64,000 nt of DNA from Sulfurimonas sp. hsl 1-7 (lineage in GTDB: Bacteria > Campylobacterota > Campylobacteria > Campylobacterales > Sulfurimonadaceae): contig NZ_JAUIRR010000001.1 in NCBI RefSeq assembly GCF_030577135.1, forward strand, positions 599,561-663,560, read 5' to 3'. The notes below the pieces were generated by a model that worked only from the letters and a program-made list of their open reading frames with translations, was not told the DNA's origin and searched no databases. Every line of letters starts with the position of its first letter. Positions within the stretch are counted from its first letter, which is position 1. Both the position numbers and the translations under genes were made by a program. Below, in pieces: positions 724-3,951 of this stretch.

Positions 724-3126
724 CTATTTTGTTTTCATAGCTCTGTTAATGATTTTTTTGAGTTCCTCACCGTCGATCACCTCTTTTTTAATGAGTTTTT
801 TTGCAACCGCTTCAATGGCAGGCCATAAGCGTTTTACCTCTCTTTGGGTTTTATGTTTCGCTTCTTCGATCCAGGCTATCATACGCTCTTCTATCCGTCT
901 TGAGAAAAGTTTTCTATCATAGACTGATTCAACACCGCTTACATTGAGGTAGCCGATCTCATCATCCATCCCAAAAAGAGCAACGGCAGCATACACCTGC
1001 ATGCTGGCAACTTCTAGATCATTAATAGCTCCGGTTTCCATCCCCTCTTCACCAAACTTTTCCATTTTCGCTATACGCCCAGCTAAAAGCACACATACAT
1101 CATTAAAAAGTTCTTCTTTTGAGGTTGCATCGACATAGTCGTCATTATGGTAAGAGACAAATCCCAAGGTCTCGCTTCTTGGTGCAACCGTCACCTGCTC
1201 TATTTTTATATCCGGCAGTAAGAAGTAAGAGAGCACTGCGTGCCCCGCTTCATGGTACGCTGTTTTTGCCATAGACTTCTCAATATCTCGTATCTGTTTG
1301 TTCTCTAATTTAGTTCCATATTTTATAATATTAATTTGCTCTAAAAGGATCTCTTCCGTGAGTTCTTTAAGCCCTTTTCGCGCAGCCTGCAAGGCAGCTT
1401 CTTGCCCTATACGCTGGAGTTCGTTTCCGCTAAGACCGGATATGTAGCGAACAACTTTCTCTACATCTATCTTTTTGTCATGCGGTTTTTTGAGCACCTC
1501 TTCAATGAAAAAGCGTCTTGCTTCCATATCGAGTTTCGGTACCTCTATGCGTATGTCTAAACGTCCCGCTTTGCTAAGCTCTTCAGGGATATTTTCAACA
1601 TTGCTAAGCGTTGCTATCGTAAAAACTGGTGATTCAAAACTACCGTTTAAAATATCCAGTTCCTCTGCAACAGGAGTGGTACTCATCAGCGAAATCACTC
1701 CGCCCATTACTCCCGGTGTATCTATATCTTCTAAAAGCACGATCGCAGGAGCTGCGGCAAAAGCCTGTGCATATGCTTTATGTATCTTAGCTGCATCAAA
1801 AAGTTCCGCACCGCTTACAACAATGTACGGCATATCACTCTCATTAGCAAAAGCACGGGCTAAAAGCTTTTTCCCCATACCGTGAGGGCCGTATAAGAAC
1901 ATCCCCTTTGGAGGTGTCATATCGAACTGCTTTAAGCGCTGAGGCTCTTTTAAAAGAGCAAGCACTTCTAGCAGCTCATCTTTCACCCTTTGTTGTCCTG
2001 CAACATCAGTAAACTTGATGTCCGAAACATGTAAAGCATCGGGAGTTAAGATAGAGAGCTTCTCTTTTGCATAAAAAGCGTTTTTGATCTTACACGTTAC
2101 ACTTTTACCCTCTTTTGTGATCTCCCAATCCAAAGTGATACGCATATGCTGCTGAGAGATCTTCTTAATGAAAAGGTGCTGCTCTTTCAGCACATTGTTT
2201 ACAAACTCCATAGCCTCATCTAAGACATCGAAATGGATCTGTTCTAGATCAGGGGTAATTTTGAGTGCTTCATATACCTGTGTAAAGATAAGCTCCGGCA
2301 CTTTTTGTATGATATGTCTTGCATTTATATAGGGTGAGAGTGAGAGTGTCAACAAAGATGCAAACTTGTCAAAGTTTGAATACTCGATCTCAAGCTTGGA
2401 ATCTTTTGCAAAATGTTGCGACATCTCATGTATTGTCCTTGCAGCAATTTTGATTAACGCTGAAAGAGAAAGACGGTTAAAGGGGATCACTGTATGTTCA
2501 TTTAAAAGTGAAAGCAGTTTTTTATCAAATGCCTCCTCTTTTACACCACCGACCATTACAAACTCTTGGGCAAGCTTTTCCATAAGATAGGTATGTGCTT
2601 GAAGCGGATCTGATTGTAAAAGCTCTTTAAAATCCTGTCTCTGTACAATAGACCCAAGTTTTGTCGTACTCATAATTACAATCACTTTGGAAAAGTCCAC
2701 TTCATTCTTTTCGTTGCCGCCAAAGAGCGAGTATAAAGCCAGCTGTGTTTGAAAATCCCCTTTTTCAATATCTTCAAAAAAGAGTATAGATTTTGGATTT
2801 TCTCTGACGAACTCTGTCACTTCAGCAGAGATAGAGGGCAGAGAAAACTGTTCCATCCCCATAGAGACATTGCCGCTGTATTGTTCCATATTGAATGTTT
2901 TTATCTGTTGGAGTTCTTTGTCTGAATGTAAGAGGGTTTGTGCAAGATAGTGCTTCCCGCTGTTTGCAAGTCCTATAAAGGTAAAAAGTGCCCTTACCTT
3001 TTGTTTCGATTTTAGCAAACTGGATTGCAGCAGACTTTTTGTAAGTGCTTGTACAGCTTCTTGTTGATCAAAAATTTTTTCGTTTAATTGCTCTTCGATT
3101 GAATTATCATAACTTGAATTTTCCAT
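724..3126 (-). CDS. FtsH-like M41 zinc protease with two degenerate AAA domains
   Basis: 800 residues. The C-terminal third is an M41 peptidase: HEAGH at 625-629 and the third zinc ligand Asp at 703 in GAINDLE. Before it is an FtsH-type AAA domain (about 365-600), but its Walker A reads GPHGMGKK (413-420, final Thr replaced by Lys) and its Walker B reads LLEDID (464-469) instead of the usual IDEID. The spacing after SGAELF is about six residues shorter than in FtsH, so the aromatic FVG pore loop appears absent. The N-terminal 300 residues form a ClpB/ClpA-like AAA domain, also altered: GLANSGKH (52-59) and FFEDIEK. There are no obvious membrane segments, unlike true FtsH. RBS AAGGTG lies just before the ATG. 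Likely a soluble proteolytic or regulatory protein; function unknown. Confidence 0.8.
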   Translation of the reverse strand: MENSSYDNSIEEQLNEKIFDQQEAVQALTKSLLQSSLLKSKQKVRALFTFIGLANSGKHYLAQTLLHSDKELQQIKTFNMEQYSGNVSMGMEQFSLPSISAEVTEFVRENPKSILFFEDIEKGDFQTQLALYSLFGGNEKNEVDFSKVIVIMSTTKLGSIVQRQDFKELLQSDPLQAHTYLMEKLAQEFVMVGGVKEEAFDKKLLSLLNEHTVIPFNRLSLSALIKIAARTIHEMSQHFAKDSKLEIEYSNFDKFASLLTLSLSPYINARHIIQKVPELIFTQVYEALKITPDLEQIHFDVLDEAMEFVNNVLKEQHLFIKKISQQHMRITLDWEITKEGKSVTCKIKNAFYAKEKLSILTPDALHVSDIKFTDVAGQQRVKDELLEVLALLKEPQRLKQFDMTPPKGMFLYGPHGMGKKLLARAFANESDMPYIVVSGAELFDAAKIHKAYAQAFAAAPAIVLLEDIDTPGVMGGVISLMSTTPVAEELDILNGSFESPVFTIATLSNVENIPEELSKAGRLDIRIEVPKLDMEARRFFIEEVLKKPHDKKIDVEKVVRYISGLSGNELQRIGQEAALQAARKGLKELTEEILLEQINIIKYGTKLENKQIRDIEKSMAKTAYHEAGHAVLSYFLLPDIKIEQVTVAPRSETLGFVSYHNDDYVDATSKEELFNDVCVLLAGRIAKMEKFGEEGMETGAINDLEVASMQVYAAVALFGMDDEIGYLNVSGVESVYDRKLFSRRIEERMIAWIEEAKHKTQREVKRLWPAIEAVAKKLIKKEVIDGEELKKIINRAMKTK

Positions 3127-3159
3127 TTTTCACCTTAATGCATTATAATACTCGGTAAT
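3127..3159. promoter_or_regulatory. Very short divergent promoter with a shared palindromic -10
   Basis: Only 33 bases separate the divergent start codons at 3126 and 3160. They contain ATTATAAT, which supplies TATAAT on both strands (+ 3144-3149; - 3142-3147). The + strand -10 lies 10 bases before the ATG of the lipM-type gene, so that transcript would be nearly leaderless. On the minus strand an AAGGTG ribosome site follows the hexamer. Transcription in the two directions probably cannot initiate at the same time. This is inference from spacing only. Confidence 0.45.
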
Positions 3160-3951
3160 ATGAAAACCATTATACAAAAAATTCGTTTATTAGATACCAC
3201 TGCAGCAAATGCTTCATACAATATGGCCGTAGATGAGGCACTACTACAAAGCTCCATAGAGAGTAATACTCCTGTTTTAAGAATATACGAGTGGAAAAAT
3301 GCATTGAGTTTTGGACGTTTTAACAATATAAACGATACTCTGAATCTTAAAATGGTGGAGGCTAAAAATATCTCTTATGCACGGCGCCTAACGGGTGGCG
3401 GGGTGCTAGTTCACGGAGGGGATATATCTTATTCGTTAATAATACCGCAAAGCGTAGTAAGCGCTCTTGGTGTCAAGGAGAGTTACAGATACCTTTGCAG
3501 TTTTTTGCTTAACTTTTATAAAAAATTAGGCTTGGATGCCAAGTTTGCCCAAGATGCAAATCTAAGTATCTCAAAGTCCAACATTTGCACCGCTTCCAAT
3601 GAGCCTTACGATATCACTATAGATGGAAAAAAGATTGGCGGTAACGCGCAAAGATACAGTAAAAACACTCTTTTTCAACACGGCTCAATTCCACTCACTA
3701 TAGATACGAAACTTTTTGAAAAGCTCTTTTTAGAAGATCCGAAACTAGGAGATATAAATACATTGGAAAAGCTTGATATATTTTCAAGTAAAGATGAATT
3801 AAAAAAACTAATGATACACTCGTTTATAGAAAGTTTTAATTCGGAACTTATACCGGATCGATTTAGTGAGCAAGAACTACACCTAATAAATGAGTTGCAA
3901 AAGAGAAAATATGACACTTATAGTTGGAATATAGATGCAGTACACGTTTAA
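3160..3951 (+). CDS. lipM: Lipoate-metabolism acyltransferase, probably octanoyltransferase LipM type
   Basis: 263 residues of the BPL_LplA_LipB fold. It shows RRLTGGGVLVHGGDISYS (substrate loop), GKKIGGNAQR with the conserved Lys158, and QHGSIPL. Cys143 lies exactly 15 residues before Lys158, the spacing I recall for the catalytic Cys of Bacillus LipM, which transfers octanoate from octanoyl-ACP to GcvH or E2; LplA ligases lack that Cys. The next gene is lipoyl synthase, which overlaps by 17 bases, so octanoylation and sulfur insertion are coupled. Lipoate ligase LplA or a LipL-like amidotransferase are the alternatives. The start is supported by a close -10 element rather than by a strong ribosome site. 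Confidence 0.75.
   Translation: MKTIIQKIRLLDTTAANASYNMAVDEALLQSSIESNTPVLRIYEWKNALSFGRFNNINDTLNLKMVEAKNISYARRLTGGGVLVHGGDISYSLIIPQSVVSALGVKESYRYLCSFLLNFYKKLGLDAKFAQDANLSISKSNICTASNEPYDITIDGKKIGGNAQRYSKNTLFQHGSIPLTIDTKLFEKLFLEDPKLGDINTLEKLDIFSSKDELKKLMIHSFIESFNSELIPDRFSEQELHLINELQKRKYDTYSWNIDAVHV

Follow-up and report, generated by a model that had tools for sequence, protein, structure and literature searches.

A soluble Clp-FtsH fusion in Campylobacterota that combines an intact M41 zinc site with two degenerate AAA domains

FtsH is the textbook example of an ATP-driven protease. The phenylalanine of its FVG pore loop is stated to have a role in substrate threading (PMC9020784), and a single arginine finger, R318, is named for TmFtsH (PMC8943139). 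Among Lon proteases, the closest described case of a degenerate motor is LonC. MtaLonC carries the Walker A sequence GPPSLGKHE and has lost the Walker B glutamate, the sensors, and the arginine finger. It exhibits no ATPase activity, binds six nucleotides per hexamer, and needs no ATP to degrade unfolded proteins, whereas folded ones are not degraded (PMC3391209). Known losses in the FtsH family run the opposite way, with the peptidase being lost, as in FtsHi. We found no published report, among open-licence papers, of M41/FtsH proteins with dead motors. The protein described herein is encoded in a 64,000-nucleotide stretch of DNA (hereafter the window) from Sulfurimonas sp. hsl 1-7, and its features are listed in Table 1.

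Table 1. Features of the fusion gene, given as window positions and as residues of the encoded protein.
Feature	Window position	Strand	Residues	Remark
Whole gene	724..3126	(-)	800 aa	Soluble Clp-FtsH fusion, D1 + D2 + M41; ATG start
D1, ClpB-D2-like AAA+ domain	2089..3123	(-)	2-346	Degenerate
D1 Walker A, GLANSGKH	2950..2973	(-)	52-59	His in place of Thr/Ser
D1 Walker B, FFEDIEK	2761..2781	(-)	116-122 (E118, D119)	ED in place of DE
D2, FtsH-like AAA domain	1315..2034	(-)	365-604	Degenerate
D2 Walker A, GPHGMGKK	1867..1890	(-)	413-420	K419 kept, Lys in place of Thr
D2 pore-loop-1 (FVG) deletion site	1777..1809	(-)	440-450	Six residues gone relative to FtsH
D2 Walker B, LLEDID	1720..1737	(-)	464-469 (E466, D467)	
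D2 arginine-finger region, GRLDI	1552..1566	(-)	521-525	R522 (first Arg) kept, second Arg replaced by Ile525
M41 peptidase domain	736..1293	(-)	612-797	
Zinc-binding HEAGH	1240..1254	(-)	625-629	
Third zinc ligand	1018..1020	(-)	Asp703	

Domain layout and motif states

A Pfam scan of the 800-residue protein returned a Clp-type AAA_2 match at residues 48-186, an AAA match at 409-530, and a Peptidase_M41 match at 617-792; the same scan found no Lon domain. The first-pass annotation had proposed that the protein lacks the membrane anchor of FtsH and carries a ClpB-like AAA domain at its N terminus, and both proposals are borne out. No transmembrane-like segment is present when hydropathy is calculated over 19-residue Kyte-Doolittle windows (maximum 1.29, versus 1.85-3.12 in the FtsHs compared), and D1 fills the N terminus. 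The predicted structure (mean pLDDT 81, pTM 0.47) is that of a monomer built from a shallow alignment of 24 rows, 3 of them covering D1. Residues 2-346 of this model match the C-terminal (second) AAA domain of ClpB (4ciu, Z 22.1), and residues 370-785 match FtsH (7zbh, Z 33.0, 3.1 Å, 360 residues). The protein is 34% identical to the genome's own FtsH and scores 219.9 bits against the NCBIfam FtsH model, for which the cut-off is 600.

Both AAA domains are altered at positions used for ATP hydrolysis and substrate handling. As the annotation had read from the sequence, and as our alignments agree, the Walker A Thr/Ser is replaced and Walker B reads ED in each domain, and the FVG pore loop of D2 is missing by length. 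Furthermore, alignment with the genome's own ClpB reveals that D1 has lost the pore loop that reads GYVG in ClpB and that SL occupies the arginine-finger position where ClpB has NR. The sensor-1 Asn of D2 is replaced as well. Retained in D2 are K419, R522, and D469, with K419 being invariant throughout the fusion family. The equivalent D1 lysine, K58, is also kept and is nearly invariant. We tentatively equate R318 of TmFtsH with R522. Loss of the second D2 arginine is weak evidence because Cdc48-type domains, which carry GRLDQ or GRFDK in this region, likewise lack that residue. The earlier suggestion that the motors are dead holds in part: the motifs look dead beside an intact zinc site, although both Walker A lysines and one trans-arginine position are retained.

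The M41 zinc site is complete, in agreement with the initial claim. Moreover, every derived family member (defined below) whose row includes the motif conserves the catalytic Glu and the three zinc ligands, and H, E, H, and D are kept in 11/11 members of a short clade that has no D1. In the window's clade, a single M41 invariant is lost, the GGRxAE Glu, and it is not among the H, H, and D ligands. It could be argued that the protein is a non-proteolytic binding protein or scaffold whose zinc site is structural, given that the superfamily has pseudoproteases (FtsHi, PMC9020784). The fusion family itself includes three mirror cases in which the D2 ATPase motifs are intact and HEXXH is broken (YEAGH in L054:4989-7613, YEAGR in L088:2949-5573, and REAAH in L089:5968-8502). 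However, the conservation of the full catalytic set throughout the derived group makes a non-proteolytic role very unlikely for the window protein.

Family, tree, and origin

Relatives that score far above ordinary FtsH are present in 51/299 genomes of the order, counting the listed matches at E below 1e-80. The family is placed in Campylobacterota on the basis of the 51 retrieved loci and two named Sulfurovum loci; in a wider contig scan, the matches listed were mostly ordinary FtsH. In a tree built on D2+M41 with canonical FtsH as the outgroup, the fusion family forms one group (support 100/100). Nested in this family is a derived group of 40 rows (support 100/100) that excludes the other long proteins. 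The derived group splits into five parts, namely the window's clade (f1/f20), f18, f4/f1, the short clade without D1 (f6/f7), and one f15 row.

The D2 pore loop 1 is missing in every family member, and all derived members that have D1 lack both its pore loop and its arginine finger. A family alignment had been put forward as a check on the substitutions, and it reveals that the motif pattern of the window protein is fixed in its own ten-member clade, with variants in all 40 derived rows. The D2 Walker state is GKK with ED in the window's clade, GKT with mostly DE (DEID) in f18, GKT/S with EG, EN, ES, EE, or DN in f4/f1, and GKS/G/K with ED or KD in the short clade. In most of f4/f1, Gly, Asn, or Ser stands in for the D2 catalytic Glu. 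The tree implies at least eight changes in D2 Walker B and six at the Walker A Thr/Ser position. HEXXH changed twice if the FtsH paralogue L003 is counted, and thus once within the fusion family.

The first-pass annotation had also held that parallel changes in both domains argue for selection rather than decay. Selection is well supported (see below), but the parallelism is weak, as D1 and D2 degenerate differently in sister clades. The D2 ED motif is limited to the window's clade and the short clade, and the AU test does not reject a topology that unites the two (p-AU 0.365). Repeated selection for ED is therefore unsupported, and this Walker B state may have arisen once instead of several times in parallel.

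In five basal long proteins (L041, L047, L051, L052, and L056), the D2 Walker motifs are canonical, and in each of these except L052, D1 has a Clp-type pore loop, an arginine finger, and DE. Homologues with canonical motifs, which had been named as a sign of sequence-specific decay, do exist, but they form a basal clade that displays the ancestral state and not recent decay. Thus, loss of the motor is derived. We infer that an ATP-driven Clp-FtsH protease from conflict-type loci was adopted by the host cell and that its motor was subsequently lost.

Several of the ATPase-intact fusions lie in loci of the conflict type. In L047:629-12355 and L051, the gene is near genes for TIR and TrkA_N proteins and for a DUF4062 + STAND-like NTPase, and in L056:5001-10941 it adjoins a DUF4062 NTPase. 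In all three of these loci the fusion is directly beside the DUF4062 STAND-like NTPase, an arrangement that might represent a defence operon. The fusion in L041:286-5587 lies downstream of a NERD + UvrD-type helicase, and that in L052 downstream of a UvrD_C-like fragment. No conflict-type neighbours were recognised beside derived members in a clustering comparison that was annotated in part. A phage or plasmid origin was considered and rejected, as no relative was found in viral contigs and, among plasmid and phage records, none covers 80% of a family member. PADLOC matches to IetA reflect AAA similarity alone.

Neighbouring genes of the fusion are ordinary within each genus, and none is conserved across clades. 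For this reason, no partner is inferred from gene order. Lipoate/2-oxoacid dehydrogenase genes adjoin the fusion here and elsewhere solely in a same-genus relative. Thirty-three bases (window 3127-3159) separate the gene start from a divergent ORF at 3160 that resembles a lipoate ligase, and this divergent arrangement is also kept in the same-genus relative L057.

Besides the fusion, the same genome encodes an ordinary FtsH (contig C4) and a further FtsH paralogue at L003:208-1845 (C1:427213-428847). This paralogue is membrane-anchored, with its Walker motifs, pore loop, and both arginines intact, and its zinc site is destroyed (YQAGK), which makes it a bacterial FtsHi-like pseudoprotease. Perhaps the fusion protein is the protease subunit of a mixed complex and is fed by an ATPase-active partner such as the FtsHi-like membrane paralogue, canonical FtsH, or ClpB. 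The genome does hold both canonical FtsH and a paralogue that is the mirror image of the fusion, having an intact AAA domain and a broken peptidase. However, the paralogue occurs in 25/26 relative genomes at the cut-off, and the majority of these lack the fusion, so the two do not specifically co-occur. Given also that no neighbour gene is conserved across clades, we regard a mixed complex as an improbable arrangement.

Selection on the motor domains and a possible mechanism

The window's clade keeps 42% of the AAA invariants and 94% of the M41 invariants of canonical FtsH, on the basis of 58 AAA and 16 M41 positions taken from 22 canonical FtsH sequences. Within this clade, dN/dS is 0.010-0.064 for the most similar pairs and 0.108 at most, with some saturated dS values left out. 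The ratio is low in all domains and is about 0.02 for D2. D1 is the fastest-evolving domain and has been lost outright in the short clade. Purifying selection on D1 and D2 is strong and exceeds the needs of a mere spacer, which counts against a pure-scaffold view of these domains. Because dN/dS is well under 1 in all domains and conservation extends across the 40-row clade, the sequences indicate that the motor changes are held by selection and that the gene is not decaying. Decay would account for the patchy presence of the family among genomes, and one copy (L017:1465-3892, in genome G078) is split by a frameshift into two overlapping frames within M41, at approximately residue 652 in the numbering of the window protein. 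Nevertheless, with dN/dS of 0.01-0.11, full-length frames, and an invariant active site in the window's clade, decay is scarcely credible.

Selection of this strength could also be expected if the protein were an atypical but working AAA+ protease, in which slow ATP hydrolysis remodels the ring and powers the degradation of loosely folded substrates. Slow hydrolysis is conceivable because K58, K419, and R522 are kept and acidic residues remain in both Walker B motifs; the low D2 ratio and the GKT and DEID motifs retained by the sister clade f18 also favor this reading. However, neither ring has its pore loop, D1 has lost its arginine finger and D2 its sensor-1 Asn, and the clades degenerate in different ways, including replacement of the catalytic Glu in most of f4/f1. 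We therefore consider a working motor unlikely.

Instead, the protein is probably a cytosolic M41 peptidase that cuts peptides and unfolded proteins without ATP, as judged from its motifs and by analogy with LonC. Presumably, the zinc peptidase would form hexamers in the cytosol, with the two stacked AAA layers serving as a static scaffold. With no substrate-gripping pore loops in either ring, and with the residues for Mg-ATP hydrolysis replaced, the assembly would neither unfold nor thread its substrates. Threading is not expected because it requires both the pore loops and the hydrolysis cycle, which are missing by sequence. Peptides and already unfolded chains might simply diffuse to the M41 sites and be cleaved there in an ATP-free manner. 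A threading motor would seem dispensable because the short clade, which has no D1, keeps its H, E, H, and D residues.

Retention of the P-loop lysines points to possible nucleotide binding, in which the nucleotide would act as a gating or structural ligand. Indeed, the retained lysines, together with low dN/dS, suggest a role for the AAA layers in nucleotide binding or in holding the hexamer, and nucleotide binding by both degenerate AAA domains is likely. It is tempting to speculate that ATP or ADP is bound unhydrolysed in the two AAA layers and that occupancy opens or closes the M41 chamber. By this doubtful extension, the Clp-FtsH machine of conflict-type loci, once driven by ATP, would have evolved into an energy-state-sensing, fuel-free protease. 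The regulation of the peptidase suggested in the first-pass annotation is likewise speculative.

Comparison with described systems

The fusion protein shares with FtsH the order of D2 and M41, the fold, and the HEAGH plus Asp zinc site. It differs from FtsH in having no N-terminal membrane anchor, an additional ClpB-like D1, no aromatic FVG pore loop, and altered Walker A, Walker B, sensor 1, and second Arg positions. D1 resembles the second AAA domain of ClpB/Hsp100 proteins in fold and motif order. Unlike those proteins, the fusion has one Clp-type AAA domain, which lacks the GYVG pore loop and arginine finger and has ED in Walker B.

Plastid FtsHi pseudoproteases (PMC9020784) are likewise FtsH-family members that are missing one activity. 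However, FtsHi proteins are membrane-sited and have lost the peptidase, whereas the fusion protein appears to have lost the motor and kept the peptidase. The FtsH of the MoxR-vWA ternary conflict system (PMC7159879) also has two AAA domains, the first of which is inactive, but both are FtsH-type, the second is active, and MoxR and vWA genes are found alongside. No MoxR or vWA genes were seen adjoining the fusion gene.

The relatives of the fusion protein are graded, in that the motor is intact in some, partly lost in others, reduced by one ring in the short clade, and accompanied by a lost peptidase in a few. As a result, the role of each AAA part could be tested on natural proteins. The closest likeness is to LonC, which also combines a degenerate AAA region with an intact peptidase, and the Thr-to-His change in the MtaLonC Walker A is the same as that in D1. 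The LonC peptidase is of the serine-lysine Lon type and is unrelated to M41. LonC also has one AAA-like module and no ClpB-like layer. By ordinary FtsH standards (anchor, pore loop, and Walker motifs), the fusion protein is not an ordinary FtsH; it is an M41/FtsH relative that, judging from its motifs and the LonC analogy, likely works like LonC. A conserved clade that has kept the peptidase and shed the motor would be the M41 counterpart to Lon's LonC.
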